A stretch of 39,930 bases of DNA from Halorubrum ezzemoulense DSM 17463 (GTDB lineage Archaea; Halobacteriota; Halobacteria; Halobacteriales; Haloferacaceae). The translations under genes and the position numbers were made by a program. Position 1 is the stretch's first letter. The number at the start of each line of letters is the position of its first letter. This document shows positions 8,887 to 24,049 of the stretch, piece after piece. The notes under the pieces were generated by a model, which was not told the origin of the DNA, did not search any database, and saw nothing but the letters and a program-made list of their open reading frames with translations. Location: the NCBI RefSeq assembly GCF_002114285.1, contig NZ_NEDJ01000028.1, forward strand, positions 1 to 39,930, written 5' to 3'.

Positions 8887-11800
8887 ATGAGCGAAGACCG
8901 CACGATTCTCCTTATCGGCAGCGGACCGATCCAGATCGGACAGGCGGCCGAGTTCGACTACTCCGGCGCACAGGCGTGCCGCGCCCTACAGGAGGAGGGC
9001 GCCCGCGTCGTCCTAGTGAACTCGAACCCCGCGACGATCATGACCGACCCCGAGACGGCCGACCGGGTGTACATCGAGCCGATCACGCCCGAGGCGATCG
9101 CGGAGGTCATCCGGATCGAGGAGCCGGACGGCGTCATCGCCGGGCTCGGCGGACAGACGGGGCTCAACGTCACCGCCGAGCTCGCCGAGGAGGGCATTCT
9201 GGAGGAACACGACGTCGAGGTGATGGGGACGCCGCTCGACACCATCTACGCGACGGAGGACCGCGACCTGTTCCGCCGGCGGATGGAGGACCTCGGCCAG
9301 CCGGTCCCCAAGTCGACGACCATCTCCTTAGACGAGGGCGAGTCGGTCACCGACTTCGACGAGGCGGCGTTCCGGGGGCGCGTCCAGGAGGCTGTCGACG
9401 CGGTCGGCGGCCTCCCGGTCATCGCCCGGACCACCTACACCCTCGGCGGCTCCGGCTCCGGGGTCGTCGACGAGTTCGAGGAGCTCGTCGAGCGCGTCCG
9501 CAAGGGGCTCCGCCTCTCGCGCAACAGCGAGGTCCTCGTCACCGAGTCCATCTCGGGGTGGGTCGAACTGGAGTACGAGGTGATGCGGGACGCCGACGAC
9601 TCCTGTATCATCATCTGTAACATGGAGAACATCGACCCGATGGGGATCCACACCGGCGAGTCGACGGTGGTCACCCCCTCGCAGGTCATCCCCGACGACG
9701 GCCACCAGGAGATGCGCGACGCGGCGCTCGAAGTGATCCGCGACCTCGGCATTCAGGGCGGCTGTAACATCCAGTTCGCGTGGCACGACGACGGCACCCC
9801 GGGCGGCGAGTACCGCGTCGTCGAGGTGAACCCGCGCGTCTCGCGGTCCTCCGCGCTCGCGTCGAAGGCGACGGGCTACCCGATCGCCCGCGTCACTGCG
9901 AAGGTCGCGCTCGGAAAGCGGCTCCACGAGATCGACAACGAGATCACCGGCGAGACGACCGCCGCCTTCGAGCCCGCCATCGACTACGTGGTGACGAAGG
10001 TGCCGCGCTGGCCGATCGACAAGTTCGACGACGTGGACTTCGAGCTCGGCACGGCGATGAAGTCCACCGGCGAGGCGATGTCGATCGGGCGGACGTTCGA
10101 GGAGAGCATGGTGAAGGCGCTGCGCTCCTCCGAGTACGACCCCGCCGTCGACTTCGAGACGGTGAGCGACGACGAGCTAGAGTCGGAGTACCTCGAACGT
10201 CCGAGCCCGGACCGCCCGTACGCGATGTTCGAGGCGTTCGACCGCGGCTACGACGTCGACGACGTGATCGACCTCACCGGCATCCACCGCTGGTACGTCG
10301 AGCGCTTCGAGCGCATCGCCGCCGGGACCGCGGCGGCCGCCGAGGGCGACTTCACCGAGGCCGCGATGGTCGGCCGCACCGACGCGGAGATCGCGGCGAC
10401 CGCCGCCGCCGCCGGCGTCGACGCCGACGTGGGGCAGGTCGAGAGCGCGGTGCCGGACCGGACTTACAAGCAGGTCGACACCTGCGCGGGCGAGTTCGAG
10501 GCTTCGACGCCGTACTACTACTCCGCGCGGCTGCCGGAGTTCCTCCGGGGCGCCGACACCGCGGGCGCGGCGAACGAGGTCCGCGTCGACCCCGACGTGG
10601 AGAGCGTCGTGGTCGTCGGCGGCGGCCCGATCCGCATCGGACAGGGCGTGGAGTTCGACTACTGCGCGGTCCACGCGGTGCGCGCGCTCCGCGAGCTCGG
10701 CATCGACGCGCACGTGATCAACAACAACCCCGAGACGGTGTCGACGGACTACGACACCTCCGACGGGCTGTTCTTCGAGCCCATCTCCGCCGAGGAGGTC
10801 GCCGACGTGATCGAGACGACCGGCGCCGACGGCGTGATGGTCCAGTTCGGCGGGCAGACCTCGGTGAACGTGGGCGAACCGCTTCAGGCGGAGATCGAGC
10901 GCCGCGGGCTCGACTGCGAGATCCTGGGGACGAGCGTCGAGGCGATGGACCTAGCGGAGGACCGCGACCGGTTCAACGTCCTGATGGACGAACTGGGCGT
11001 CGCCCAGCCCGAGGGCGGCACCGCGACGAGCGAGGCGGAGGCGCTCGAACTGGCCCACGGGATCGGCTACCCGGTCCTCGTTCGCCCCTCCTACGTGCTG
11101 GGCGGGCGCGCGATGCGCGTCGTCGAGGACGACGCGGAGTTAGAGGAGTACATCGAGGAGGCGGTCCGTGTCTCCCCCGACAAGCCGATCCTCGTCGACC
11201 AGTTCCTCGACGACGCGGTCGAGCTGGACGTCGACGCGGTCGCGGACGGCGAGGACGTGCTCCTCGGCGGCGTGATGGAACACGTCGAGAGCGCCGGCGT
11301 CCACTCGGGCGACTCCGCGTGCATGATTCCGCCGCGCTCGCTCGGCGACGAGACGCTGGGCCGGGTCCGCGAGGTCACCGAGGATATCGCCCGCGCGCTC
11401 GACACGGTCGGACTGCTCAACGTCCAACTCGCGGTGACGGGGGTCGACGACCCCGACGCCGAGAGCGAGGTGTACGTGCTGGAGGCGAACCCGCGCTCCT
11501 CGCGGACCGTCCCGTTCGTCTCGAAGGCGACGGGCGTCCCCATCGCCAAGCTCGCGGCGAAGGTGATGACCGACGACCTGACGCTCGCCGACCTCGACGC
11601 CGCCGAGCAGATCCCCGAACACCGCAGCGTGAAGGAGGTCGTCCTCCCGTTCGACCGGCTGCCGGGGTCGGACCCGCGGCTCGGCCCCGAGATGAAGTCC
11701 ACCGGCGAGGTGATGGGCACGGCCACCTCCTTCGGCAAGGCGTACGACAAGGCGCAGGACTCGACCGGGAAGCCGATCCCCGAGTCCGGCACAGCCGTCG

Positions 11801-12117
11801 TCGACCTCTCGGCCGAGGAGTTCCCGGACCCGGGCACCGAGGCGGGCGAGGCGCTCGTCGACGGGTACGCGGCGCACTTCGAGCTGAGCGAGGCGACGGA
11901 CCTGATCGAGGCGGCCAAGCGCGGCGAGCTCGACCTCATCGTCTCGCGGCAGCGCGACCTGCTGGAGGTCGCCGTCGAGGAGGAGATCACCTACTTCTCG
12001 ACGCACGCCTCCGCGAAGGCGGCGCTCGAAGCCCTCGACCGCGCGGGCGACGACCTCGACGTGATGGCGGTCTCCGACCGGCCGAAGCGCGTCGAGCAGT
12101 GGGGCGCCGCGGAGTAG
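8887..12117 (+). CDS. carB: Carbamoyl-phosphate synthase large subunit
   Basis: A 1076-aa protein, full family length. It makes carbamoyl phosphate from bicarbonate, ATP and ammonia (from the CarA glutaminase) for pyrimidine and arginine synthesis. Two homologous halves are visible, each starting with a GxGPIxIGQ...EFDY motif (SGPIQIGQAAEFDYSG and GGPIRIGQGVEFDYCA) and each with an ATP-grasp domain (ARTTYTLGGSGSG and VRPSYVLGGRAMR; metal sites VEVNPRVSRSSALASKATGYPIA and LEANPRSSRTVPFVSKATGVPIA). The C-terminal methylglyoxal-synthase-like allosteric domain (about 940-1076) ends in RPKRVEQWGAAE. carA is not adjacent in the window. Local control is probably through the repeats at 8809-8842. Confidence 0.98.
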   Translation: MSEDRTILLIGSGPIQIGQAAEFDYSGAQACRALQEEGARVVLVNSNPATIMTDPETADRVYIEPITPEAIAEVIRIEEPDGVIAGLGGQTGLNVTAELAEEGILEEHDVEVMGTPLDTIYATEDRDLFRRRMEDLGQPVPKSTTISLDEGESVTDFDEAAFRGRVQEAVDAVGGLPVIARTTYTLGGSGSGVVDEFEELVERVRKGLRLSRNSEVLVTESISGWVELEYEVMRDADDSCIIICNMENIDPMGIHTGESTVVTPSQVIPDDGHQEMRDAALEVIRDLGIQGGCNIQFAWHDDGTPGGEYRVVEVNPRVSRSSALASKATGYPIARVTAKVALGKRLHEIDNEITGETTAAFEPAIDYVVTKVPRWPIDKFDDVDFELGTAMKSTGEAMSIGRTFEESMVKALRSSEYDPAVDFETVSDDELESEYLERPSPDRPYAMFEAFDRGYDVDDVIDLTGIHRWYVERFERIAAGTAAAAEGDFTEAAMVGRTDAEIAATAAAAGVDADVGQVESAVPDRTYKQVDTCAGEFEASTPYYYSARLPEFLRGADTAGAANEVRVDPDVESVVVVGGGPIRIGQGVEFDYCAVHAVRALRELGIDAHVINNNPETVSTDYDTSDGLFFEPISAEEVADVIETTGADGVMVQFGGQTSVNVGEPLQAEIERRGLDCEILGTSVEAMDLAEDRDRFNVLMDELGVAQPEGGTATSEAEALELAHGIGYPVLVRPSYVLGGRAMRVVEDDAELEEYIEEAVRVSPDKPILVDQFLDDAVELDVDAVADGEDVLLGGVMEHVESAGVHSGDSACMIPPRSLGDETLGRVREVTEDIARALDTVGLLNVQLAVTGVDDPDAESEVYVLEANPRSSRTVPFVSKATGVPIAKLAAKVMTDDLTLADLDAAEQIPEHRSVKEVVLPFDRLPGSDPRLGPEMKSTGEVMGTATSFGKAYDKAQDSTGKPIPESGTAVVDLSAEEFPDPGTEAGEALVDGYAAHFELSEATDLIEAAKRGELDLIVSRQRDLLEVAVEEEITYFSTHASAKAALEALDRAGDDLDVMAVSDRPKRVEQWGAAE

Positions 12118-12240
12118 CGGGCGGACTCCACGCGGCCGGAGTGCGTGCTCGTGGACAGGAGCGATTCCGTGACGTTCGGAGCGAGCGCGCCCGGCGGCGC
12201 TGAGGGCCGCGCTCCCACGGGCCGGCGCTCCGCATTCGAC

Positions 12241-12248
12241 GTTTTAAG
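12241..12248 (+). promoter_or_regulatory. TATA box of the signal peptidase gene
   Basis: The box gttttaag is centred 22 bases before the first ATG (12267) and 28 before the second in-frame ATG (12273). Leaderless spacing therefore slightly favours the second ATG; both are kept open. Confidence 0.55.
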
Positions 12249-12266
12249 TCCCGACACTTCGTCGGT

Positions 12267-13421
12267 ATGAGCATGTCACGGCAGACGGCGGGAGACGCGA
12301 TCGCCGTCGTGTCCGTGTTAGTCGTCGTCGTGATCGTTGCCGGCCAGCTCGCCGGGCAGCCGGTCCTTCTCGGGTACGTTACCTCCGGAAGCATGGCGCC
12401 GACGCTGGAGGCCGGAGACGGGTTCGTCGCCGTGCCGGCGTCGGCGTCGGGACCCGTCGAGGAAGGGGACGTCGTCGTCTTCGAAGCGATCGAACTCGAC
12501 GGGGGCGGGACGACGACGCACCGAGTCGTCGGAGCGACGCCGGACGGCTATCTCACGAAGGGAGACAACAACCCCTTTCGGGATCAGGACGGCGACGAAC
12601 CCCCGGTGACCGAGGACCGGATCGTCGCAACGGCGCTCCAAGTGAACGGAGAAGTCGTCCGAATTCCGGGGCTGGGGACCGCGATCACCGGCGTCCGAGA
12701 CGTGGCCGCGGGCGCCGTGGTCGGGGTGACAGCCGCAGTCGGTCTCGACTGGTCGCCGGGTCAAAACGGGCTCAGCGGGCTGTTCATCGGCCTCGGTCTC
12801 GCGCTGCTGCTGTTCATCTTCGTCGACGACCTCCGGAACGCCGGTCGGCGGGCTCAGAGCCGAGACCGGTCCCGGGGCGACGACGGGCTCGACGCTCGCT
12901 GGGTCGCGCTCCTCCTGGCGCTGTTGATACTCGTACCGGCCAACGCCGCGATGATCGCTCCTAGCGGCACGCATCACGTGACCGTCGACGGCGGCGACCT
13001 CCCGGCCGGGACGCTCCCGGGCGACCGAGTGGAGAACGAGTTCACCGCGGAGAACAACGGGCTCATCACGATGCTCGTCGTGCTCGAAACGACCCATCCG
13101 GAGAGCGAGTTCGACCGGACTCAGCTGGCCGTTCCGCGGGGAGAGTCGGTGACTGCGACGCTGTCGACGACCGCTCCGGGATCCGGAGAACGCGCGACGG
13201 TCACGGTCTCGGAACACCGGTACTTCCTCGTGGTTCCGCCCTCACTGATCCTCCGGCTCCACTCGATCCATCCGGCCGTCGCGGTCGGCGCGTTCAACCT
13301 ACTCGTCCTCGGGAGCATCGCCACGCTGCTGGGGGCGCTCCTCGGCTCCGGATCGAGGCGGGTTCGAGAACGGAGACGCGGCGCGTCGCTGAGCGTTCAG
13401 CTCCGGCGACTGTTCAAGTAG
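12267..13421 (+). CDS. ER-type (S26B, SipW-like) signal peptidase I fused to an extracellular domain
   Basis: A 384-aa membrane protease. An N-terminal helix (about 10-30) precedes SGSMAPT with nucleophile Ser42, then THRVVG with His85 and KGDNN with Asp100. His instead of Lys as general base marks the archaeal/ER type, the class that includes Bacillus SipW. Two more helices follow (about 168-185 and 207-226), then an extracellular beta-rich domain (about 228-325, ENEFTAENNG to EHRYFLVVP) and a last helix (about 330-355) with a basic tail. The fused domain is not part of a minimal signal peptidase. It converges, with an 8-base gap, on genes for exported proteins, so it is probably dedicated to them. 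The start could be Met3 (12273). Confidence 0.9.
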   Translation: MSMSRQTAGDAIAVVSVLVVVVIVAGQLAGQPVLLGYVTSGSMAPTLEAGDGFVAVPASASGPVEEGDVVVFEAIELDGGGTTTHRVVGATPDGYLTKGDNNPFRDQDGDEPPVTEDRIVATALQVNGEVVRIPGLGTAITGVRDVAAGAVVGVTAAVGLDWSPGQNGLSGLFIGLGLALLLFIFVDDLRNAGRRAQSRDRSRGDDGLDARWVALLLALLILVPANAAMIAPSGTHHVTVDGGDLPAGTLPGDRVENEFTAENNGLITMLVVLETTHPESEFDRTQLAVPRGESVTATLSTTAPGSGERATVTVSEHRYFLVVPPSLILRLHSIHPAVAVGAFNLLVLGSIATLLGALLGSGSRRVRERRRGASLSVQLRRLFK

Positions 13422-13429
13422 CTGAGCGG

Positions 13430-14437
13430 TCAGGAGGTCGAGTTCTGAGTGGGTTTCAGTTCGAAGTAATCGATTTCGGCTTTTTTATTATTTCCACTAC
13501 TCGTCATTCTGAAAATGAGATACAACTTAATTTGTTTCAAGGGGTCGATTTTCTCTTCGTTCAATTCGAATTCGAACCTGTTCAACCCTTTCTTCAGCTT
13601 GTCTTTTTTACCCTTACCTGCCCCAGTCAGTGGGTTCTTGTCGCCGTCGACTACATCGACAACCCAATCTCCACCAGGTGGACTGTCGGAGACAGCGACA
13701 TCAAGCACGTACTTCTCGCTCTCCGGTACGGGTGGGAGAGCGAACCCGATGTTCGCCTCATCTATACTATTACCACCCATATTAGATTCACTTTGAAGTA
13801 TCGCATAGGGATCATTCGGATCATTCTCATTCCTTTGGTTCAGCCTTTCGGGGTTCAACACTTCGCCTTTTGCGTCGTTTCCCGGTGGGATGTCCGAATT
13901 ATCTGTATTCCCCGAATTGTCTCGATAATTAGCGGAATCACCGTAGTCATAAGATTCTGTACCACAATCAAATGAAATTCTATTGTTAGTAGTACGCGTC
14001 GCAGTGATAGTCTGGTCATCATTATCTAACTCAAATAATAGTTTAAGGAAATCATCGTTGAACGTGGTCGGTTCATTTGGGCACGCTGCTTTCACTGAGA
14101 AAGAATTGGGACTCTCCTCGTCTTCGACCACTTCGATCCGGACCGAATCGTTTCCGCTGCCTGTGGTTCCCGAGACAGAGACACGATTAATATTGAACTC
14201 ACCGACGCCATCTTCGATTACATACACCTCCTCGCCGTCAGTTGAATCGACGGTGCCCGCGTTGCCGGAAACGTCGACGAACCGTAGCACGGCATCCTCG
14301 CCGTCGCCCGTATTAACCGTTACATCCCGATTCGAGGTGATCTGCGTCGACCCGCCGGTACCGAACAGCATGAAGCCGCCGCCGCTCACGAGTGAGCCGA
14401 CGGCGGCGCGTCGCGTCCACTTCTTGTTATCGCCCAT
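13430..14437 (-). CDS. AT-rich gene for an exported surface-type protein
   Basis: A 335-aa protein, unrecognised as a family. The N-terminus MGDNKKWTRRAAVGSLVSGGGFMLFGTGGSTQITSN (written here as its motifs: twin Arg at about 9-10, then a hydrophobic run ending in FGTGGSTQ) is a Tat/SipW-style signal region like that of its neighbours. A beta-rich N-terminal half follows. The C-terminal half (about 225-335) looks like a jelly-roll or Ig-like carbohydrate-binding type domain (YVLDVAVSD, NRFEFELNEEKIDPLKQIKLYLIF, AEIDYFELKP). The gene has far lower GC than its surroundings and is rich in Asn, Ser and Lys, a sign of transfer. It overlaps the upstream DUF7344 gene by 11 bases, so the two are one transcript. 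Confidence 0.82.
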   Translation of the reverse strand: MGDNKKWTRRAAVGSLVSGGGFMLFGTGGSTQITSNRDVTVNTGDGEDAVLRFVDVSGNAGTVDSTDGEEVYVIEDGVGEFNINRVSVSGTTGSGNDSVRIEVVEDEESPNSFSVKAACPNEPTTFNDDFLKLLFELDNDDQTITATRTTNNRISFDCGTESYDYGDSANYRDNSGNTDNSDIPPGNDAKGEVLNPERLNQRNENDPNDPYAILQSESNMGGNSIDEANIGFALPPVPESEKYVLDVAVSDSPPGGDWVVDVVDGDKNPLTGAGKGKKDKLKKGLNRFEFELNEEKIDPLKQIKLYLIFRMTSSGNNKKAEIDYFELKPTQNSTS

Positions 14438-14999
14438 CTCTGAGCTCCGGCGGTTTTCCGTCGCTGCCGAGATTCATCTCCCGGTTCTGGTAGGCGTGGA
14501 ACGCCGCGGAGGCGGTGAACAACGCCGCGATTATCCCAGCCCACGCGAGGCTCGGTATCGATTCCGGAAAGACGCCGACCCAGACGGCCGCGACGAGACT
14601 CAGCGACACCGCACCGAGGCCGAGGTAGTACTCGGCCCACGGGATCGAGTCCCCGGGCACGACGTCGACGTACACGTCGAGGTCCCGCGCCTCCTCGGTC
14701 AGCTCGATCGTCCCGCTGTCGTGCGTGATGATGCCCGCGCGCTCTAACTTCGGGATGTGGTTCTGCTGTATCGAACTGTACGCGAGGTGCCGTTCGCCAG
14801 AGGTAATCTCGGAGACCGACTTGCCGTTCTCCCACGCCGCCACCTGTTCGGCGACATCAGAGAGCTCCGTGGTGCCGTCTTCGTTCTTAATCGCGTGGAG
14901 GGAGTAGCGTCTTCGTGGATTGCTTAATATTTCATAAATTTCGTTCCGTGAGAGCGAGGAAGGGTGCTGTTCTCCGGCACCAACTTGATCGGTGCTCAT
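14427..14999 (-). CDS. DUF7344 winged-helix regulator with C-terminal membrane helices
   Basis: A 190-aa protein. The N-terminal domain (about 15-105) is the haloarchaeal DUF7344 winged helix (IYEILSNPRRRYSLHAIK, LSDVAEQVAAWENG, QNHIPKLERAGIITH). Two transmembrane helices follow (about 120-140 and 145-165) and a charged tail. It looks like a membrane-bound one-component regulator: it could sense envelope state directly and bind DNA on the cytoplasmic side. It overlaps the following exported-protein gene, so probably controls or is co-expressed with the surface module. The 137-base gap upstream is AT-rich and contains a palindromic cttataag (about 15064-15071) that may be its TATA box. Confidence 0.85.
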   Translation of the reverse strand: MSTDQVGAGEQHPSSLSRNEIYEILSNPRRRYSLHAIKNEDGTTELSDVAEQVAAWENGKSVSEITSGERHLAYSSIQQNHIPKLERAGIITHDSGTIELTEEARDLDVYVDVVPGDSIPWAEYYLGLGAVSLSLVAAVWVGVFPESIPSLAWAGIIAALFTASAAFHAYQNREMNLGSDGKPPELRDGR

Positions 15000-15136
15000 T
15001 GGCGCCTCGTAACCGCTGATAACTGACTGCTAATGTAAAGAGGCATACTATTCACTTACGATCTTATAAGTTGTCCAACGACTAAAAGGAAACGCTCCAG
15101 ATAAGAATAGTTTATACTGGTGCTGAAAGGGTCGAA

Positions 15137-15886
15137 TTAGCTGCTGCCGCTGATCCTGATCAGCAGGTCCTCTGTCTCCCTGCTCGCCTCTCCGGCCTGA
15201 ACATCGCCACTGAGCGTCACGTTACCGGAACCGGTGAAGCTCGGACTGTTGCTTACGTTATTTCCGTTGACGTTCGTGAGCAGTCCCTCGTCGACGTCCC
15301 CTTTCGCGAACGTGACATCAACGTCACCGTTTCTCACGACGCCGAAGAGCTCGCTTTCACTGAGGTTCGAGTTCGGTGGCAGTTTGCGATCTTCCGGTCC
15401 GAAGACGATAGTCACGTCGTTGGCGACGAGACTGACGTAACTCCGGTCAATGCTATCGTTATCGTACGTGTCATCGAGCGCCGGGTACAGCGATCGGCCG
15501 TCGAACTCCGTTCCCTCTGTGTCTTTCACCGTGACGAAATCCGACGCCGTGTTCACGAGAACGTCAGCAGAACCGTCGTTCCCGATAATCTGGCTCGAGA
15601 TATCGTCTTCAACGTCTTGGATCGACTCATCGTTGTCGTCGCCATCGATATCGGTAGTATCATCTGCGGCCGTGGCGTCATCGTCGGGATTCACACTTCC
15701 GGGTGAATTGTTCAGATGGATGATCCCGTCAGCCCGGAACTCGCCACCGAGAACATTAACCTCCACCTCGCGCTGCGCCTCGACCGTGGTGAACGCTCCC
15801 GACCCGAACGCCGCACCGGTTCCGACGCCGATCATCCCGATGGCCCCCAACACGCTTCTGCGATTCAGCTTCATTGTTACGTCCAT
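15137..15886 (-). CDS. Exported DUF1102/TasA-camelysin-style protein
   Basis: A 249-aa secreted protein. The signal region MKLNRRSVLGAIGMIGVGTG then AAFGSGAFTTVEAQREVEV is the pattern of haloarchaeal DUF1102-type and SipW-dependent proteins: twin Arg, hydrophobic core and cleavage near GSGAF, followed directly by beta strands. The mature part is acidic, with an Asp-rich insert (about 60-90) and many short strands, and no transmembrane helix. A reverse-strand TATA (15905-15916) lies 25 bases before the ATG at 15886; Met5 is an alternative start. It is a candidate substrate of the nearby peptidase and perhaps a fibre or matrix subunit; that role is inferred from layout. Confidence 0.8.
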   Translation of the reverse strand: MDVTMKLNRRSVLGAIGMIGVGTGAAFGSGAFTTVEAQREVEVNVLGGEFRADGIIHLNNSPGSVNPDDDATAADDTTDIDGDDNDESIQDVEDDISSQIIGNDGSADVLVNTASDFVTVKDTEGTEFDGRSLYPALDDTYDNDSIDRSYVSLVANDVTIVFGPEDRKLPPNSNLSESELFGVVRNGDVDVTFAKGDVDEGLLTNVNGNNVSNSPSFTGSGNVTLSGDVQAGEASRETEDLLIRISGSS

Positions 15887-15904
15887 CCATTGGCTAGGTA
15901 CCCA

Positions 15905-15916
15905 CTTACTATTAGG
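15905..15916 (-). promoter_or_regulatory. TATA box of the DUF1102-style gene
   Basis: The reverse-strand sequence cctaatagtaag is centred 25 bases before the ATG at 15886. The large dyad at 15919-16010 starts immediately upstream of it, where an activator or repressor would be expected. Confidence 0.6.
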
Positions 15917-15918
15917 CC

Positions 15919-16010
15919 GCGTTAGCCGGGTTCAGGCGGTCATTGAAGCCGGTGGACGGCTCTAACGCCCCCGGTTAGCCGAGTCAATGCGACGCTGAAG
16001 CGGCTAACGC
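15919..16010. repeat. Nested 92-bp dyad in the divergent promoter region
   Basis: The outer arms GCGTTAGCCGGGTTCAG (15919-15935) and CTGAAGCGGCTAACGC (15995-16010) are inverted copies differing by one base and one insertion. Inside them are CATTGA (15941-15946) against TCAATG (15984-15989). At the centre is CGGCTCTAAC (about 15957-15966) against GTTAGCCG (about 15974-15981). All pairs share one centre, so the whole could fold as one interrupted hairpin or serve as multiple operator sites between the two divergent surface-protein genes. Confidence 0.6.
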
Positions 16011-16149
16011 AGTTCACTACTAACACCCTCGGTGACCTATCCACGAGCGTGAGCGAACGGGCCGCGCCGACGAGAGCGACGACGCCGAGTAGCCTCGGCC
16101 CTGTCGTCGCGCGGCGAGGCTCGACCCGGACGGCGAACTCGGTGGGAAC

Positions 16150-17544
16150 ATGAACCGCGCCCTCGTCGTGCTCGCGGTGCTCGTCGTCCTGCTCGGCGGC
16201 GGCGTCGCGACCACCGGCTCGTTTACCGACGGCGACGAGGTCGCGACCGACTCGGGCGTCTACCTGTCGCCCGCCGACAGCGAGAACGCCGACAGGTACG
16301 TCGCGTACGATGGCGCCGGAGAGCTGCGTCTCCGCTTCGGATCGGTCCCGCCGGACGCGCGGACGAGCGTCGACGACCTGTTTCTCGTCGGGTTCGCCGG
16401 CCACGAGGGCGACGACTCCGCCACGACGGTCGAGATCGACGCCGACGCCGAGGGCGTGACGCTGTACCGGATGGACACCGGCGAGCGAGTCACCGGCGGC
16501 GAGATAACGCTTGAGCCGGAGGCGTCCGTCACGCTCGGCGCGACCGTCCCGCCGACGGTCGGGAGCTACACGGAGAGCGTCCGCTTCACCGTCGACGTCC
16601 CCGAAGACGACACCGGATCCGATCCGGGTGACGGCACCGGCGGTGGCACCGGCGGACCGAGCGATAGCGGTGACGACGGCGGCGGACCAGACGATAGCGG
16701 TAACGGCGACGGCGGACCAGACGATAGCGGTAACGGCGACGGCGGACCAGACGATAGCGGTAACGGCGACGGCGGACCAGACGATAGCGGTGACGGCGAC
16801 GGCGGACCAGACGATAGCGGTGACGGCGACGGCGGACCAGACGATAGCGGTAACGGCGACGGCGGACCAGCCGATAGCGGTGACGGCGACGGCACTGGCG
16901 GCAACGACGGTGGGACCGGGAGGGGCAGCGGTGGCGACAGCGCCGGAGACGGTGACAGTGGGACCGGAAGTGACGGCGGCGACGACGGCACTGGCGACGA
17001 TGGCACCGGCGACGACGGCACTAGTGGTAGTGGCAGCGGGACCGACGGTGGCGACAGCGGAACGGGCGGTGACGCCGACAGCGGTGCGGACGGGGCCGAG
17101 GCCGGGTCCGACGGGGCAGACGGCGACTCCGACGCCGGGGACGGGACTGACGACGGCGAGGCGGACGGTACCGCCAACGATGTCTCCGACTCGGCAGAGG
17201 GCGATCCGACGGCCGAGCCGGCCGGTGGTCAGTTCGAGCTGTTACCCGTCGAGTGGTCCCTGTTCGCGGGCTTCCTCGCCGGGCTCTCGAACTACCTCGT
17301 CCAGACCCGAATCAGGGACGTGGTACCGGCGTTGAAGACCGAACGGTCGGAGCGCAGGGCACGCCTCCGGAGCATCCTCGTCCGCGAGGCGGTGATCACG
17401 CTGGCCGTGATAGCGCTCACCGTGCTGGTAGCGAGCGTGCTCTCCAGCGCCGGCGTCACCGGCACGCCGCAACTCGTCGCGACGTTGGCCTTCTCGGCCG
17501 TCGTCGGCGGCGTGTCCGGCGTCAGAGGGCTCCCGAGAATCTGA
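16150..17544 (+). CDS. Exported DUF1102-like domain on a Gly/Asp repeat stalk with a C-terminal membrane domain
   Basis: A 464-aa protein. A signal or anchor helix (about 4-20) is followed by TTGSFTDGDEVA, which closely resembles the SipW-type junction of camelysin-like proteins. A beta-sandwich-like domain follows (about 30-155; VDDLFLVGFAGHEGDDSATTVEI, VTLGATVPPTVGSYTESV), similar to DUF1102. Then comes a stalk of about 200 residues of Gly, Asp, Ser and Asn, including seven decapeptide repeats GGPDDSGNGD (about 178-247). A C-terminal part has three hydrophobic segments (about 362-384, 410-434 and 438-460). It could display the N-terminal domain beyond the S-layer, or anchor a fibre. The start ATG at 16150 directly precedes the signal helix; no clear TATA lies at leaderless distance. 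Confidence 0.82.
   Translation: MNRALVVLAVLVVLLGGGVATTGSFTDGDEVATDSGVYLSPADSENADRYVAYDGAGELRLRFGSVPPDARTSVDDLFLVGFAGHEGDDSATTVEIDADAEGVTLYRMDTGERVTGGEITLEPEASVTLGATVPPTVGSYTESVRFTVDVPEDDTGSDPGDGTGGGTGGPSDSGDDGGGPDDSGNGDGGPDDSGNGDGGPDDSGNGDGGPDDSGDGDGGPDDSGDGDGGPDDSGNGDGGPADSGDGDGTGGNDGGTGRGSGGDSAGDGDSGTGSDGGDDGTGDDGTGDDGTSGSGSGTDGGDSGTGGDADSGADGAEAGSDGADGDSDAGDGTDDGEADGTANDVSDSAEGDPTAEPAGGQFELLPVEWSLFAGFLAGLSNYLVQTRIRDVVPALKTERSERRARLRSILVREAVITLAVIALTVLVASVLSSAGVTGTPQLVATLAFSAVVGGVSGVRGLPRI
16681..16890 (+). repeat. Seven tandem 30-bp repeats encoding a Gly/Asp-rich decapeptide
   Basis: Seven head-to-tail copies of a 30-bp unit, each beginning ggcggaccagacgatagcgg and ending tRacggcgac. Copies differ almost only at a g/a that makes Asn or Asp; the last copy has Ala for Asp. 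A diverged eighth copy lies at 16651-16680. The near identity in DNA, not just protein, points to recent slippage or recombination, so copy number is probably variable between strains. Confidence 0.95.
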
Positions 17545-17575
17545 GCTCACCCTCCGGATGAACCGGTATCCGACC

Positions 17576-18169
17576 CTACAGCGCCTCAAGCGTCGCGCGG
17601 TCCACCTCGGTGGCGGGCATCGCCTCGCCGCCGTACTCCGCGACGAAGTCCTCCCCGTCGTCCTCGTCGGTGAACGGGACCAAGTCCGGCCCCATCGCGC
17701 CGATCACCTCGCTGCGCGCGACGACCGTGAGGGTCGTCTCGCGGGCGAACGCCTCGCTTTCGACGTGCGAGGAAAACATCGTGTCGCCGCCCTCCTCGAA
17801 CACCTCCTGGTCGACCGCCGAGTAGTCGGTGAGGAAGGTCGCGACCGGCGTCCGTCCCGCGTCCGCCGCGTCGAACCGGTAGGTGTACGTACAGGTGCCG
17901 CTACAGAACTGCGCCGGGCGCCCGCCCTCCGGCTCGTCGTCCTCGAAGTGGACCTGCCCGACCGTTCCGGGGTGGTCCGCGACGATCATCCCGCACTGGT
18001 CGCAGGCTTGGTCGTCGTCGATCGAGACGGGGGACACGGACTCTGACCCTCCGCCGGCACAGCCGGCGACCGCGGCGGCGCCGCCGGCGGCGAGTCCGGC
18101 GAGCAGGCGTCGCCGCGGGATGTTCTCGCGTCGGTCGGGTGCGCTCGTCGGCTGGTTGTCGCTCGTCAT
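17576..18169 (-). CDS. nosL: NosL-type copper-binding lipoprotein
   Basis: A 197-aa protein. In known systems NosL is a Cu(I)-binding lipoprotein that supplies copper to the nitrous oxide reductase assembly machinery. Seen: a twin-arginine signal (RRRLLAGLAAGG), lipobox VAGC with Cys37, the metal motif CDQCGMIVADHP (Cys56, Cys59, Met61) and FCSGTC (Cys89, Cys93). The family tail VIGAMGPDLVPFTDEDDGEDFVAEYGGEAM is also present. It is divergent from nosD with a 104-base shared control region. A reverse TATA (ctaatag, about 18190-18197) lies 25 bases before the ATG, so it is leaderless. Family call is strong; the role in N2O reduction depends on a nosZ outside the window. Confidence 0.92.
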   Translation of the reverse strand: MTSDNQPTSAPDRRENIPRRRLLAGLAAGGAAAVAGCAGGGSESVSPVSIDDDQACDQCGMIVADHPGTVGQVHFEDDEPEGGRPAQFCSGTCTYTYRFDAADAGRTPVATFLTDYSAVDQEVFEEGGDTMFSSHVESEAFARETTLTVVARSEVIGAMGPDLVPFTDEDDGEDFVAEYGGEAMPATEVDRATLEAL

Positions 18170-18187
18170 AGTTGTATTTGGAATACC

Positions 18188-18200
18188 GGGCTATTAGCCC
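18188..18200 (-). promoter_or_regulatory. nosL TATA box inside a 13-bp palindrome
   Basis: GGGCTATTAGCCC is a perfect palindrome around a central T. It contains the reverse-strand TATA-like ctaatag 25 bases before nosL. A protein bound to the palindrome would block TBP, so it could be a repressor site. Confidence 0.5.
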
Positions 18201-18217
18201 CTCTGGACGCGTTCAAC

Positions 18218-18243
18218 GGTTCGTTCGAGGAACGAACCAGACG
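18218..18243. promoter_or_regulatory. Long palindrome and shared regulon element upstream of nosD
   Basis: A perfect 21-bp inverted repeat, GGTTCGTTC-GAG-GAACGAACC (18218-18238), lies between the nosL and nosD TATA boxes. Its 3' part plus the following bases match GTTCGNNGANCGNACCAGA (from 18223), also found before the UreH/SafE-type gene and sco at the same distance from the start codon. It probably binds the activator of the copper/denitrification genes. Confidence 0.65.
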
Positions 18244-18250
18244 TTCTAAG
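18244..18250 (+). promoter_or_regulatory. TATA box of nosD
   Basis: The box ttctaag is centred 27 bases before the GTG at 18274 and immediately follows the palindromic element, the usual place for an activator next to the BRE. Confidence 0.6.
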
Positions 18251-18273
18251 GCGCTGCCGATCGAAGCGGACGC

Positions 18274-20298
18274 GTGGCAGTTTTCGACCCCGCTACCGCC
18301 CGGTCGCGTCGCCTCCGGCTCGCGCTCCTCGGGCTCGTCGCGCTCGCCGCGGTCGCGACCGCGGGCGCGTTCGCCGCGGACCCGAGCGAGTCGGTACCCG
18401 AGCCGGTGCGGTTCGACGACGCGGTCGAGCTGGGGCTCTCCTCGGAGACGGACGCGCTGATGGCCGGCGACGCGACGCTCCCGCGCGTCCAGGTGTTCTA
18501 CTCGCAGCTCCAGTACGTCGTCGGGTACAACGGGATCGCCTCGTTCGTCGACTCGCGCCGCGATGGGCGGACGGAGCGCCAGTTCGGCTATCCGCTCGTC
18601 GCGTACGTCGAGACGTTCGACCATCGGGACCCGGGCACGACCGAGTCGGGGCTGTTCGCCGCGGGCGGCGCGGGCGGCTGGACGCCCGTCGGAGAAGCGC
18701 GGTACGTGGTCGACAGCGACGCGCGGACGCCGGCCGGGCCGGTCGTCGTCCCATTCGCGAGCCGCGACGCCGCGGCGGCGTTCGCCGACGAACACGGCGG
18801 CTCCGTCGTCGGCTGGGCGGCGGTCCGAAGTCGGTCGTTCGACGTCGACTCCGCGGCGACCGTGCGGGCGCTCGCCCCGGACCGCTGGCGGACGGCGAAC
18901 GACCGGATCGCCGCGGCGGAGCGGCGCGCGGACCGCCCGGCCTCCGTCGTCGTCGGCGAGGACGCCCCCACGATCGGCGCCGCGGTCGCGGCCGCGCCGC
19001 CGAACACGACGGTCCGCGTCCCGCCCGGGACCTACGAGGAGACCGTGACGGTGAACCGGTCCGTGACGATCGCCGGCGCGGGCAGCGGCACCGGCCCCGG
19101 AGCGACCCGCGTCGTCGGCGACGGGAACGGGTCCGTGATCACCGTTCACGCGCGCGACGTGGCGGTCACGGGGCTGCGGATCGCGGGCACGGGGAACCGC
19201 GCCCGCGACCCGGAGGCGGCCCGCGCGTCCCGCGAGAGCGAGGGCGGGACGTGGGACACGAACATCCAGCTTGGCTACGGCTACGGCGACGCCGGGATCA
19301 AGGCGGTCGGCGCGCCCGGGCTCGTCGTCGACGACGTCGCCGTCGACACGGAGGCGAGCGGGATCCTGTTGCGCGACGGGTCGCACGCGACCGCGAGCGG
19401 ACTCCTCGTCGAGGGGACCGACGAGTGGCAGGACGGGTTCATGGGCGTCGCCGGGATGAAGTCGCGCGTCACCGTCACCAACAGCCGGTTCGAGGGCGGA
19501 CGCGACGGGATCTACCTCCACCGCGCCGACGGCTCGATCGTGCGGAACTCGACGTTCGTCGACAACCGGTACGGGACGCACCTCATGTACACCGGCGACG
19601 CGCTGGTCGCGGACAACGCCTTCCGGAACGAGCTGTTCGCCGGAGTCACCGTGATGACGCGGCCGGCCGGCCACGCGATCGTCGGCAACGACGTCCGCAA
19701 CTCCAGCGCGGGGATCCAGGCGTCCGGCACGCGGACGTACGTCGGGTACAACACGCGGGTCGGGAACGAGCTCGGCTTCTCGACGAGCGCCCGGGGGTCG
19801 CTGTACGAACACAACGTCGTCGTCGACAACGAGCTCGGCGCGCGAGCGACGACCGTGGTCCCCTCCAGCCGGGTCGTCGCAAACGACTTCGTCGGCAACG
19901 GCGACCACGCCACGGCCGGGGCCGGGGCGCTCCGCGTGTGGGCCGACGGCGACCGCGGGAACTACTGGGACGGCGCGAGCGTCGGCCCGCACGCTCCCGG
20001 GAGCCGGGCGTATCGCCCGACTTCGCCCGTGGACGCCGCGCTCCACCGCCACGTGAGCGCGGCCGCGGTGCGCGAGTCGCCCGCGGCGCGGCTGCTCGAC
20101 GCCCTCCGGGGGACCGTCCCCGGCGCCCGCTCGGGGAGCATCATCGACCCCGCGCCGGCGGCCGCGCCGTACCACCCCGAGCGGGTCGACGCGGTCACCG
20201 GTGCGGGCGCCGACGCCGACGGACCGGTCCGAGCGGACTGGCGGGCCGCCGGCGAGCCCGCCGGAAACGCCACGGCGACCGCGGAGGGGTCGGCGTGA
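18274..20298 (+). CDS. nosD: NosD, copper-site assembly protein with an N-terminal NosL-like domain
   Basis: A 674-aa exported protein; ordinary NosD is about 400-450 aa. A basic signal helix (about 10-33) leads to an extra domain (about 45-205) that resembles NosL (FGYPLVAYVETFDH, EARYVVDSDARTPAGPVVVPFASRDAAAAFADEHGG) but lacks the CGM copper motif. The NosD right-handed beta helix follows (about 220-560; GRDGIYLHRADGSIVRNSTFVDNRYGTHLMYT, NELFAGVTVMT). The tail contains GNYWDG and AYRPTSPVD. NosD works with NosF and NosY in the assembly of copper sites of N2O reductase. The start is GTG at 18274, fixed by the TATA box. Its stop overlaps the nosF start by four bases (GTGA). Confidence 0.92.
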   Translation: MAVFDPATARSRRLRLALLGLVALAAVATAGAFAADPSESVPEPVRFDDAVELGLSSETDALMAGDATLPRVQVFYSQLQYVVGYNGIASFVDSRRDGRTERQFGYPLVAYVETFDHRDPGTTESGLFAAGGAGGWTPVGEARYVVDSDARTPAGPVVVPFASRDAAAAFADEHGGSVVGWAAVRSRSFDVDSAATVRALAPDRWRTANDRIAAAERRADRPASVVVGEDAPTIGAAVAAAPPNTTVRVPPGTYEETVTVNRSVTIAGAGSGTGPGATRVVGDGNGSVITVHARDVAVTGLRIAGTGNRARDPEAARASRESEGGTWDTNIQLGYGYGDAGIKAVGAPGLVVDDVAVDTEASGILLRDGSHATASGLLVEGTDEWQDGFMGVAGMKSRVTVTNSRFEGGRDGIYLHRADGSIVRNSTFVDNRYGTHLMYTGDALVADNAFRNELFAGVTVMTRPAGHAIVGNDVRNSSAGIQASGTRTYVGYNTRVGNELGFSTSARGSLYEHNVVVDNELGARATTVVPSSRVVANDFVGNGDHATAGAGALRVWADGDRGNYWDGASVGPHAPGSRAYRPTSPVDAALHRHVSAAAVRESPAARLLDALRGTVPGARSGSIIDPAPAAAPYHPERVDAVTGAGADADGPVRADWRAAGEPAGNATATAEGSA

Positions 20299-21089
20299 GC
20301 GAGCCGACGCTCGCGGCCGTCGACGGCGTCACCCGAACCTACGGCGGCGTCCCGGTCCTCGATGGCGTCTCGCTGTCGGTCGAGGCCGGCGTCACCGCCG
20401 TCGTCGGCCCCAACGGGTCCGGCAAGTCGACGCTCCTCGGGATCCTCTCGGGCGCCGTCGAGCCCACCGCGGGGAGCGTCCGGTACCCCGAGGGCGGCCC
20501 GCGCGCCGGGTCCGAGAAGCACGTCGGGTACCTGCCGCAGCGGGTGCCGTTCCGCGACGGGTTCACCGCCCGGGAGACGCTCGGGTTCTACGCGGCGCTG
20601 GCGGGCGGCGACCCGGACGCGGCGCTGGCCGGCGTCGGGCTGTCCGACGCGGCCGGAAAGCGGGTGGGAGCCCTCTCGGGCGGGATGCGGCGACTGCTCG
20701 GGATCGCGCAGGCGACGCTCGGCGACCCGGACGTGGTCGTCCTCGACGAGCCGACGAGCGGGCTCGACCCGGAGATGCGGGAGCGGGCCTTCCGGGCGGC
20801 GGCCCGCGCGGGCGACGACGCCGCCGTCGTCGTCAGCTCGCACGACCTCGACCTCGTCGACGCGCACGCGGACGCCGTCGTCGTCCTCCGTCGCGGTCGG
20901 GTCGCCGCGGCGGGGGCGCGCGGCCGGCTCCTCGATGACCACGGGGTCGACGGCGTCGCCGAGCTGTACCGCGCGGTCGCGGGCGGCGCCGAGTCGCCGG
21001 CCTCGCCCGCCGAAAGCGAGTCAGCGGACGACGGAGAGGGGGGTCGGGACGACGGCGAGGTCCACGTCACGGGGGTGTCAGAGCGATGA
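20295..21089 (+). CDS. nosF: NosF, ABC transporter ATPase for copper-site assembly
   Basis: A 264-aa ABC ATPase. Walker A GPNGSGKST (about 38-46), Q-loop YLPQRVPF, signature LSGGM, Walker B VVVLDEPTSGLD and switch VVSSHD are all present. The C-terminal 30 residues are an acidic low-complexity tail. Translation begins at a GTG overlapping the nosD stop, with a GGAGG ribosome site about seven bases ahead; the longer open frame upstream lies inside nosD and was dismissed. It powers NosY, and in studied systems NosDFY is needed to load copper sites of N2O reductase. It overlaps nosY by four bases (ATGA). Confidence 0.93.
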   Translation: MSEPTLAAVDGVTRTYGGVPVLDGVSLSVEAGVTAVVGPNGSGKSTLLGILSGAVEPTAGSVRYPEGGPRAGSEKHVGYLPQRVPFRDGFTARETLGFYAALAGGDPDAALAGVGLSDAAGKRVGALSGGMRRLLGIAQATLGDPDVVVLDEPTSGLDPEMRERAFRAAARAGDDAAVVVSSHDLDLVDAHADAVVVLRRGRVAAAGARGRLLDDHGVDGVAELYRAVAGGAESPASPAESESADDGEGGRDDGEVHVTGVSER

Positions 21090-21949
21090 ACCGGCGACTT
21101 GGCGGGGTCTGGGTCGTCTTCCGCCGTGAACTGGCCACGGTGCGGCGGACGCCCGGGTACGCCGTCCTCGCGGTCGGCCTCCTAGTCGTCCTCGGCGGGC
21201 TCGTCGCGGTCGGCGGCGGCGGCGCGACCGGGTTCGTGCCCGCGGTCGTCGACCTCCTCTTACCGACCGAAGTGTTGGTGCCGCTGCTGGCGGTCGTGCT
21301 CGGCTACCGCGCGCTGTTCGCCGACGCGGCGAGCGGGGAGCTCGGCGTGATCCGGACGTGCCCGGTGAGCGCGGCCGGGTACGTCGTCGGCGTGCTGCTC
21401 GCGCGGACGGCCGCGCTCGTCGTCCTCGTCGGCGGGCCGTTCGCGCTCGTCGGCGCGTACGTGTGGCTCACCGCCGCGCCGGACACGGGGATCTTCGCGA
21501 CGCACTCGGGCGTCGACTCGCCGGTGCTGTTCCTCCGCTTCCTCGCGCTCGTCGTCCCGTTCGGCGCGGCGTACCTCTCGCTGTCGGCTGCGGTGTCGAC
21601 GATCGCGACGACCCGGCGGAGCGCGTTCGCGCTCGGCCTCCTCGCGCTGCTCGCCGGCGTCCTCGGCGGCGACCTCGCGGTGCTCCGGTCGCTGTCGGCC
21701 GGGGCGTCGCCGAGCGGGATCGCCGGCTCGCTCGCCCTCTCGCCGAACGGGGCGTTCAGGGGACTCGTCTTCGAGCACGTCATCGGCGTCTCCTTCGCGC
21801 CGGAGGGCGGGTTCGTCGACACCGGGCGGGCGGTGGCCTCGCTCGTCGGGTGGACCGTCGTCGGGGGCGTCGCGGCCGTCGCCGCCATCGCGCTCGGTCC
21901 CCGCGTCGACGTCGCGGTCGAGCACCTCCGCGCGCGGCTCGACCGATGA
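21086..21949 (+). CDS. nosY: NosY, ABC transporter permease
   Basis: A 287-aa integral membrane protein with about six transmembrane segments (about 22-42, 55-75, 100-125, 150-180, 185-205 and 255-275). The cytoplasmic start VWVVFRRELATVRRTPGYAVLA is typical of ABC-2 type permeases. It is the third gene of nosDFY and overlaps nosF. The motif GELGVIRTCPVSAAGYVVG is the coupling-helix type region of this family. Assigned to NosY by family and strict gene order. Confidence 0.9.
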   Translation: MNRRLGGVWVVFRRELATVRRTPGYAVLAVGLLVVLGGLVAVGGGGATGFVPAVVDLLLPTEVLVPLLAVVLGYRALFADAASGELGVIRTCPVSAAGYVVGVLLARTAALVVLVGGPFALVGAYVWLTAAPDTGIFATHSGVDSPVLFLRFLALVVPFGAAYLSLSAAVSTIATTRRSAFALGLLALLAGVLGGDLAVLRSLSAGASPSGIAGSLALSPNGAFRGLVFEHVIGVSFAPEGGFVDTGRAVASLVGWTVVGGVAAVAAIALGPRVDVAVEHLRARLDR

Positions 21950-21991
21950 GCCGGTCGGTCGAATCGACTTGAAGCAAGCCGGCCGGTCGAC

Positions 21992-22345
21992 TCACTTCGA
22001 GGCCGCGTCGTCGCCGATCGCCCCGGGCGCGTGGGCGTACACCGCGTAGAGGACGAGCGCCGCGATCAGGAAGTCGAGGCTGTGCGCGAGGAGGTGGTGG
22101 CCCGGCATCGGCACGACCCCGAGGACGGTCCCGACGCCCACCACCGAGCGGGCCAAGAGCGCGCCGACGGCGAGGGAGATCAGTCGGTACTGCGCTCGGC
22201 GGCGGCGGCGGTACGCGGCGAGGCTGACGGCGAAGAGGAGGCTCGTCCCGAGTCCGGCGGCGACCACGACCGCCAGGATCGGGAGCGATCCCTCCACGGA
22301 CCAGCCGGCGAGCGTCGTCACCTCCCCCGGGATCGACTGCGTCAC
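21992..22345 (-). CDS. Three-helix membrane protein (DUF7471-like) beside nosY
   Basis: A 117-aa protein with three predicted membrane helices (about 24-46, 56-80 and 90-107) separated by a basic loop AYRRRRRAQYR; two His lie in PGHHLLAHS before the last helix. I associate it with a haloarchaeal family found near nos and regulator genes (DUF7471, moderate certainty). A GTG at 22345 was chosen because a reverse TATA-like cttctta lies about 27 bases upstream; an ATG at 22414 is possible but would add a non-hydrophobic extension. It is divergent from the winged-helix regulator gene and could be its membrane partner. Confidence 0.65.
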   Translation of the reverse strand: MTQSIPGEVTTLAGWSVEGSLPILAVVVAAGLGTSLLFAVSLAAYRRRRRAQYRLISLAVGALLARSVVGVGTVLGVVPMPGHHLLAHSLDFLIAALVLYAVYAHAPGAIGDDAASK

Positions 22346-22406
22346 GGGTCGCCCTTGGGAGGGGACGGATAAGAAGACGTTCCCGTTCGCCGTTCCCAGA
22401 CGGGGG

Positions 22407-22428
22407 GACCGCACGAGCGCCTTTTATT
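22407..22428 (+). promoter_or_regulatory. Promoter of the winged-helix regulator with a partial regulon element
   Basis: The box cttttatt (22421-22428) lies 33 bases before the ATG at 22458. Fourteen bases ahead of it is GACCGCACGAG, matching the right half of the nosD/sco element (GANCGNACCAG) in nine of eleven positions, at the same distance from TATA. The left half is absent, so this is a weak member. Confidence 0.35.
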
Positions 22429-22457
22429 CCAGAGGCGGGTAGAACGGACAGTCAGGA

Positions 22458-22970
22458 ATGTCGGACACCAGAGCCCGGATCCGACGCCACGTCCGTGACA
22501 CGCCCGGCGTCCACTTCAACCGGATCGGTCGCGACCTCGAGATCGCGACCGGGCAGGCGCAGTACCACCTCCGCCGGCTCGTCCGCGACGGCGAGCTCGC
22601 GGTCGAGCGGATCGGCGGGCGGGCACACTACTTCGACCCGACGGTCGACCCGTGGGACCGACGGACCCTCGCGTTCCTCCGGCGGGAGACGGCCCGCGAG
22701 ATCGTCGTCTGCCTCCACGCCGCGGGACCGACGCGGCCGTCGGCGCTCGCGGACGACCTCGACCTCGCGCGGAGCACGGTGTCGTGGCACGTCTCGACGC
22801 TCGCCGACCACGGGATCGTCGAGAAGTCCCCCGACCGGCCGATGACAGTCTCGCTCGCCCGGCCGGACCGCACGGCCGCGCTCCTCGACGAGGTGTCGCC
22901 GTCGCTCCCCGACCGCATCGTCGACCGCTTCGTCCGCACCGTCGACTCGCTCTTCGACGCCGACGGGTGA
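22458..22970 (+). CDS. Two-domain winged-helix transcription regulator
   Basis: A 170-aa cytoplasmic regulator with two winged helices. The first (about 1-55) has FNRIGRDLEIATGQAQYHLRRLVRDGELAVERIGGRAHYF. The second (about 75-135) has PSALADDLDLARSTVSWHVSTLADHGIVEKSPDRPMTVSL. Both recognition helices (GQAQYHLRRL and STVSWHVSTL) are ArsR/MarR-like. There are no cofactor-binding Cys, so it is not an obvious copper or oxygen sensor. Its place between nosDFY and the copper genes with shared promoter elements makes it the leading candidate for their regulator; that is inference. Confidence 0.88.
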   Translation: MSDTRARIRRHVRDTPGVHFNRIGRDLEIATGQAQYHLRRLVRDGELAVERIGGRAHYFDPTVDPWDRRTLAFLRRETAREIVVCLHAAGPTRPSALADDLDLARSTVSWHVSTLADHGIVEKSPDRPMTVSLARPDRTAALLDEVSPSLPDRIVDRFVRTVDSLFDADG

Positions 22971-23026
22971 CGCCGCCGACCGGGTGGCGGCTCCCCCCGG
23001 ACCGACGCCGCGCGCGAACCGCTCCC

Positions 23027-23053
23027 GTTCGCCGATCGCACCAGATCGGTTAG
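23027..23053 (+). promoter_or_regulatory. Shared regulon element and TATA before the UreH/SafE-type gene
   Basis: The element GTTCGCCGATCGCACCAGA (23027-23045) is followed by a weak TATA, ggttag (23048-23053), centred 27 bases before the ATG at 23078. The element starts 51 bases before the start codon, as at nosD. Confidence 0.6.
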
Positions 23054-23077
23054 CGGTCTCCGGCACCTCCGTCCGAT

Positions 23078-23932
23078 ATGGACCTCTCCAGCCTCGGCGC
23101 GCTCCGAGCGCTCGTCGCCACCGGCGGCGGCGCGACGTGCGAGCCGACCGGCTCCCTGTACGCGACCGACTCGCTCGGCCTCGGCGTCTTCCTCCTCATC
23201 GGGCTGCTCGGCGGAGCCCACTGCCTCGGCATGTGCGGTCCGCTCGTCGGCACCTACGCCGACCGGATGCGGTCCGCGGAGGCCGGCGGACGCGACGGGC
23301 GGGACGACCTCACCGTGCGCCAGGTCCGGCAGCACGCGCTGTTCAACCTCGGCCGGACCGCGAGCTACGCGACGCTCGGCGGTCTCTTCGGCCTCGCCGG
23401 GAGCCTCGCGTTCGTCACGGGGCGGACGGTCACGACCCTCGCAGACGACGTCCACGCGCTCACCGGAATCGCGGTCGGCGGGGTGATCGTCGCCCTCGGC
23501 GCGCGCTACGCGCTCCGGCTGGAGTTCGAGTCGCTCCCGATACCGGGGTTCGACCGGGCGGCCGCGGCGGTGAGCGACCGGATCGTCGCCCGCGTCGACG
23601 CGTGGGTCGGCGACTGGCGCATCCTCGGGCTGGGGGCGGCACACGGGTTCCTGCCGTGCCCGCTGCTGTACCCGGCGTTCCTGTACGCGTTCGTTCAGGG
23701 GAGCGCGCCCGGCGGCGCCGTCTCGCTGGGCGTCCTCGGCCTCGGGACGGTTCCGGCGCTCCTGTTGTTCGGGACGGCCTTCCAGTCGATGCGCCTCGAG
23801 ACCCGGCTCCGGTTCCACCGCGTCCTCGGCGTCGCGTTCGTCGCGCTCGGCTACCTCCCGCTCCAGCACGGGCTCGCGACGCTCGGCGTCCCGCTGCCGC
23901 GTCCGCCGATCCCGTACTACACGCCGTTTTGA
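23078..23932 (+). CDS. UreH/SafE-type (DsbD_2) membrane protein, probable copper handling
   Basis: A 284-aa membrane protein annotated in relatives as sulfite exporter TauE/SafE family. It has about six to seven membrane helices and two hallmark motifs, GGAHCLGMCGPLVG (about 46-59) and AHGFLPCPLLYPA (about 188-200). The paired Cys and His are thought to bind or move copper or thiols in the related proteins linked to cbb3 oxidase and metal-enzyme maturation. Its promoter carries the same element as nosD and sco, so a role in copper supply is favoured over sulfite export. The exact substrate is unknown. Confidence 0.85.
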   Translation: MDLSSLGALRALVATGGGATCEPTGSLYATDSLGLGVFLLIGLLGGAHCLGMCGPLVGTYADRMRSAEAGGRDGRDDLTVRQVRQHALFNLGRTASYATLGGLFGLAGSLAFVTGRTVTTLADDVHALTGIAVGGVIVALGARYALRLEFESLPIPGFDRAAAAVSDRIVARVDAWVGDWRILGLGAAHGFLPCPLLYPAFLYAFVQGSAPGGAVSLGVLGLGTVPALLLFGTAFQSMRLETRLRFHRVLGVAFVALGYLPLQHGLATLGVPLPRPPIPYYTPF

Positions 23933-23997
23933 GGGATCGACAGCGCCCCGGGAGCCCGCGCACCCAATATCCCAATTCCCACCCGCCGCGGCCGCTC

Positions 23998-24025
23998 GTT
24001 CGTCGATCGCACCAGACGCGTTATG
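23998..24025 (+). promoter_or_regulatory. Shared regulon element and TATA before sco
   Basis: The element GTTCGTCGATCGCACCAGAC (23998-24017) is followed by TATA-like gttatg (24020-24025), about 27 bases before the ATG at 24050. The element begins 52 bases before the start codon. Confidence 0.6.
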
Positions 24026-24049
24026 CGCCGCTCGGCCCTTCACACGGGT

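Follow-up and report, generated by a model that had tools for sequence, protein, structure and literature searches.

What does the five-gene locus at positions 12267-17544 of contig NZ_NEDJ01000028.1 of Halorubrum ezzemoulense DSM 17463 assemble? The window analyzed here is this contig (C76; 39,930 nucleotides), part of a 3.6 Mb genome. A first-pass annotation had described the locus as a candidate SipW/TasA-like module that could build a surface fibre or matrix, its parts being three exported proteins (among them a Gly/Asp stalk as anchor), a dedicated signal peptidase and a regulator in the membrane. The gene set is real: the five open reading frames are intact, their coordinates were confirmed, the quoted motifs are present, and the gene order is conserved in Halorubrum, Haloferax, Haloarcula, and others. 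As NCBIfam names three of the five genes directly, the surface-assembly module is best described as a Tat-fimbria (tafi) cluster, very probably in a variant form. The idea of a filament module with its own peptidase, membrane regulator and stalk therefore stood, and its identification with SipW/TasA did not.

Tafi were described only in 2025; the passages of PMC12687288 on the work of Galeva et al. (2025, iScience 28:111793) present them as thin haloarchaeal filaments with Tat-exported components and a TafA core. The system itself is thus already named, and the locus goes beyond it in three respects: the absence of TafE, the swapping of the TafC C-terminus, and an accessory insertion between carB and nosL. 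Neither the twin-arginine (RR) motifs, the existing family names, the missing TafE nor the insertion had appeared in the first-pass annotation.

Family assignment of the five genes

The signal peptidase gene is followed by the TafC-like, DUF7344 and TafA genes on the opposite strand and by a TafF-like gene on the strand of the peptidase (Table 1). The curated NCBIfam families NF052520-NF052523 have cut-offs of 190 bits for TafA (NF052520), 410 for TafC (NF052521), 155 for TafE and 420 for TafF (NF052523). TafA passed with 220.2 bits. The TafF-like protein has an anchor-like layout, with a Sec-type signal, an N-terminal domain, a Gly/Asp/Ser linker and a C-terminal transmembrane (TM) segment at residues 406-439. 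The peptidase, of the endoplasmic reticulum (ER) type, matched TIGR02228 (54.9 bits, cut-off 51.85) and PF10502 (25.4 bits, cut-off 22.9). A residue count confirmed the catalytic Ser42, His85 and Asp100, which are conserved in at least 97% of 31 relatives; the predicted topology comprises an N-terminal TM segment, central TM segments 166-190 and 206-235, a soluble domain, and a weak C-terminal TM segment at 333-352. The regulator proved to be a DUF7344 protein, as annotated (PF24035, 80.1 bits, cut-off 27.8), with two predicted TM segments (124-146 and 148-166).

Full-length TafA at or above the cut-off was encoded by 24 of the 391 Halobacteria genomes and none of the 14 controls; strong TafF matches adjoin TafA. 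Named carriers include Halorubrum, Haloarcula, Haloferax larsenii, Haloferax elongans, and Halovenus. The survey of other genomes proposed in the first-pass annotation found the same peptidase subtype within about 9 kb of TafA in 30 of 31 taf loci, and a DUF7344 gene in 28. The order peptidase, TafC-DUF7344-TafA, TafE, TafF recurs in Halorubrum, Haloarcula, and Haloferax. Since the peptidase subtype is common (302/391 genomes), its co-occurrence taken alone is a weak test; only the closest clade tracks tafi, the 16 closest matches of the window peptidase all lying in taf loci.

TafA was modelled as a beta sandwich with moderate confidence (predicted local distance difference test, pLDDT, 64). 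VIA-align placed it near 7ueg, the bundling pili of Pyrobaculum calidifontis (Z 5.2, root-mean-square deviation 4.3, 119 residues; a weak match tied with unrelated folds), the CfaB and FimH pilin domains (Z about 5), and 9p0a (Z 4.2). Foldseek returned zero matches at E <0.001; TasA, camelysin, and the Sulfolobus thread filament were not among the matches listed, which excludes nothing. The comparison with TasA and bundling pilins that had been called for thus gave weak matches only, and the model is compatible with a donor-strand pilin without proving anything.

Several points weigh against a tafi assignment. TafC matched NF052521 with only 47.6 bits (E 1.3e-12) over residues 4-150, and the TafF-like protein reached 316.5 bits (E 2.6e-94), so both remained under their cut-offs; the tafA-tafF gap contains neither tafE nor a remnant of it; the TafA model is only moderately confident, with the other four models at pLDDT <40; and its best PDB matches are tied with unrelated PapD-like folds. 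With TafE missing and TafC and TafF below the curated cut-offs, a complete canonical tafi cluster is therefore not established. TafC likewise matches NF052521 by its N-terminus only in other Halorubrum with a clear TafA, and several TafF proteins adjoining clear TafA also fall under 420 bits. Neither of these two thresholds was taken as defining tafi, and the locus was classed as a variant because TafE counts as an accessory subunit. We consider the family assignment solid, and word the roles of the proteins inside the filament more cautiously.

Export signals and cleavage motif

TafA has the signal NRRSVL, with the twin arginine invariant in 26 TafA homologues, and TafC has WTRRAAV, with RR invariant in five TafC sequences. 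Because of these invariant motifs, Tat export of TafA and TafC, instead of a SipW/TasA route, is likely. The TafF signal is a plain hydrophobic one of Sec type without RR and ends in TTGSFTDGDE. Related motifs end the signals of all three exported proteins (GSGAFT, GSFT, and TGGST), as the first-pass annotation had noticed. This similarity is not due to chance, since G28, G30, A31 and F32 of the TafA motif FGSGAFTT are invariant in 26 proteins and TafF homologues have GAFT/AAFT-like motifs at the equivalent place.

A TafA profile search of PDB sequences found a single credible match, 9p0a ("Structure of Natrinema sp. J7-2 Tafi pilus"), which shares the TafA signal region (E 2.7e-17). The 9p0a sequence is 215 residues long, and its model of 188 residues ends at 215; provided that the model is contiguous, it begins at F28, directly after GTGA, which points to cleavage within the conserved motif, at GSGA↓F. 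The position resembles the TasA site, for which the relevant part of PMC10269814 describes a Phe near the cut handled by SipW, so the peptidase part of the SipW analogy may hold in the sense of "works like." Our literature search found no paper on DUF7344 or on 9p0a.

Absence of TafE

All other compact taf loci with TafF have a gene at the TafE position between TafA and TafF, and the four of these proteins that were scored gave 178-231 bits against the TafE cut-off of 155. Throughout the H. ezzemoulense genome no protein exceeded this cut-off (best 71 bits). A frameshifted or relocated tafE was rejected, as the tafA-tafF gap holds no remnant and no gene genome-wide passes the threshold. The absence does not reflect an assembly gap, because Halorubrum sp. 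Hd13 also lacks TafE and has the same layout.

The GC content is low across 13.4-15.9 kb (window 13430-15886): GC at third codon positions is 0.55 in TafC versus 0.96 in carB, and the peptidase and TafF genes are high-GC. Contamination or misassembly of this block was rejected, because the pattern is identical in Hd13 (GC 0.50 in TafC and 0.52 in TafA, with high-GC neighbours).

Other contigs of the genome carry further tafi-like loci. Contig C10 (L018, 1-6759) encodes a TafF-like anchor, a pilin related to 9p0a and a DUF7344 protein, and terminates within a peptidase homologue. Another 9p0a-related pilin is encoded on C123 (L019, 2322-3532), and C83 (L020, 1632-6912) contains genes for a TafF-like anchor and a DUF7344 protein.

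The variable C-terminus of TafC

The N-terminus of TafC is constant across carriers and the C-terminus varies. An AlphaFold model of the window protein (pLDDT 63) shows two beta domains, an N-terminal one at 39-157 and a C-terminal one at about 160-332. The latter matched carbohydrate-binding modules (CBM) of families CBM4/16/27/29 and galactose-binding-like jelly rolls in the PDB with Z 8-9.4 and a root-mean-square deviation of about 3. By alignment, this CBM-like C-terminus is also present in Hd13, Halorubrum coriense, Halorubrum salipaludis, and strain 48-1-W. In Haloarcula, Haloferax and Halorubrum tebenquichense the C-terminus is a LamG domain (63-88 bits, cut-off 27.6), and in genome G013 (L074, 9953-11125) a bactofilin (PF04519, 64 bits). 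The fold of this domain therefore differs within one genus.

In the peptidase tree, the CBM-like pair of the window and Hd13 is sister to a LamG pair, G006 and G177, with modest support (81/81), and the bactofilin-bearing G013 is nested among CBM-like carriers (98/98). Such domain swapping would look like the pattern expected of a modular, exchangeable tip adhesin, the role proposed here for TafC.

In the bactofilin-ended TafC, a cytoskeletal polymer fold is apparently Tat-exported to the surface. Two further TafC-type proteins of about 765 aa (L067, 2383-4671; L079, 9653-11947) have no Pfam match past the Tat N-terminus and could represent a fourth tip type.

Insertion between carB and nosL

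The locus is flanked by carB (8887-12117, plus strand) and nosL (17576-18169, minus strand). The carB-nosL positions were compared in 52 genomes. The cluster fills this gap (5.1-6.6 kb) in four Halorubrum genomes: the one analyzed here, Hd13, H. tebenquichense, and G006. The carB and nosL stop codons are 3-126 bp apart in ten other Halorubrum read directly, and in nine further genomes the gap is <150 bp by coordinates. Given these empty sites, the cluster is accessory here and inserted at one fixed position. In G148 about 1 kb of unrelated sequence occupies this place. Three genomes (G198, G357, and G013) carry the taf cluster on other contigs, and their own carB-nosL sites are without taf genes. 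Inspection by eye only revealed no obvious repeats at the insertion ends. Beyond the cluster, window positions 17576-24739 contain nosL-nosD followed by DsbD-type and SCO1-type genes and look like a nitrous-oxide reductase maturation region.

Table 1. Coordinates of the variant tafi cluster and its site, with supporting evidence
Feature	Position	Strand	Evidence
Archaeal (ER-type) signal peptidase, cognate	12267-13421	+	TIGR02228, PF10502, conservation, hydropathy, locus co-occurrence
TafC-like minor subunit, proposed tip adhesin	13430-14437	-	NF052521 match, AlphaFold model, PDB fold matches
DUF7344 regulator, two predicted TM helices, overlaps tafC start	14427-14999	-	PF24035, hydropathy
TafA, major fimbrial subunit	15137-15886	-	NF052520, invariant RR, beta-sandwich model
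Divergent tafA-tafF intergenic region, tafE position in other genomes	15887-16149	.	263 bp without tafE or remnant
TafF-like anchor	16150-17544	+	NF052523 match, hydropathy
Accessory insertion, convergent carB / nosL	12118-17575	.	Empty sites in other Halorubrum

Alternative explanations

A Sec-exported fibre of the TasA/camelysin type, processed by SipW, as first proposed, would fit an ER-type Ser-His-Asp peptidase adjoining exported proteins, but this peptidase scored 41.3 bits against the SipW equivalog NF046067 (cut-off 190), and TafA and TafC carry RR motifs. The GSGAF motif does resemble the TasA cleavage region, and 7ueg is among the fold matches of TafA; the only credible sequence match of TafA in the PDB is nevertheless 9p0a, not TasA. 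Family scans of the three exported proteins found no camelysin match (PF12389, at E up to 1) and no SipW-cognate signal (TIGR04088) above the cut-off of 19 bits, with a sub-threshold 13.5 bits for the TafF N-terminus as the only trace in the window. Genome-wide, four genes exceeded this cut-off, all in a separate locus on contig C44 (L130, 2147-10212), whose own peptidase scored 93 bits to SipW versus 41 for the window peptidase. The four exported proteins of C44 have GTTAYFNDTE-type signals, also with SRRKVL-type twin arginines; one has a clear VWA domain, another is just under the VWA cut-off, and two DUF7344 genes are nearby. A SipW-cognate and a tafi system thus coexist in one genome with a common regulator family, and a SipW/TasA identity of the window locus is very improbable.

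The loss of TafE could instead mark a tafi locus that is decaying and no longer makes filaments. The gene is gone without a remnant, and TafC and TafA diverge fast (43% and 62% identity to Hd13, versus 86% for the peptidase and DUF7344 protein), but all five reading frames are intact in both species, and Hd13 keeps the TafE-less layout. Moreover, a short TafC is also found in species retaining TafE, and pN/pS relative to Hd13 is 0.27-0.52 in all five genes (dS saturates for TafC), so all five are kept under selection. We regard decay as distinctly unlikely. That the C10 or C123 pilins supply the TafE function, which would be a sub-case of a working TafE-less filament, is less improbable but still doubtful: they match the Natrinema Tafi pilin with E 1e-11 to 2e-16 and score 63-71 bits against TafE, far under the cut-off that the TafE of other clusters pass. 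C10 also looks like a separate module, since it brings a TafF-like gene, a DUF7344 gene and a fragment of a peptidase.

Proposed mode of assembly and its implications

A further-reaching reading, to which we give slightly less than even odds, is a two-species Halorubrum lineage that builds a working TafE-less tafi filament, with TafC as a modular adhesin at the tip (a constant Tat-exported N-terminus joined to a CBM-like, LamG or bactofilin domain) and the cluster as an accessory element at carB-nosL. In the main reading, a variant tafi cluster, TafA and TafC would fold in the cytoplasm and be exported by Tat; TafF would take the Sec route and be retained by its C-terminal TM segment. The dedicated archaeal signal peptidase may cut at the shared GSGA↓F-type motif, after which TafA would polymerize, probably by exchange of an N-terminal strand among its beta-sandwich subunits. 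At the tip, the exchangeable C-terminal domain of TafC would bind a surface ligand, most likely a glycan. The filament base may be anchored by TafF and its Gly/Asp linker, and the DUF7344 membrane protein would control transcription of the cluster. With TafE, an adapter according to NCBIfam, lost in this lineage, TafA would connect straight to TafF or TafC, or a pilin paralogue would replace the missing adapter.

The variant suggests that TafA, the TafC N-terminus, TafF, the peptidase and the DUF7344 gene are the essential parts of tafi, that TafE is optional, and that TafC may serve as an exchangeable adhesin at the tip. Empty carB-nosL sites provide natural plus/minus strain pairs for testing fimbria function, and the additional SipW-cognate locus allows two peptidase-linked export systems of one genome to be told apart.

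Comparison with known filament systems

The locus shares with canonical tafi a TafA above the cut-off, a TafF-like anchor, the TafC N-terminus, twin-arginine signals, and the gene order with peptidase and DUF7344; it differs in having no TafE, a CBM-like jelly roll instead of LamG in TafC, and a TafF below the cut-off. The Natrinema sp. J7-2 Tafi pilus (9p0a) is alike in the signal region, motif and beta-rich pilin, but over the mature region it matches the C10/C123 paralogues of the H. ezzemoulense genome, not TafA. Likeness to the P. calidifontis bundling pilin 7ueg is limited to the weak fold match, with no match in sequence. The SipW/TasA system of Bacillus and the haloarchaeal SipW-cognate proteins resemble the locus in having a dedicated ER-type peptidase adjoining its substrates and a similar cleavage-region motif, whereas the window is distinguished by its Tat signals, a SipW-cognate signal only below the cut-off, and no TasA/camelysin sequence match.

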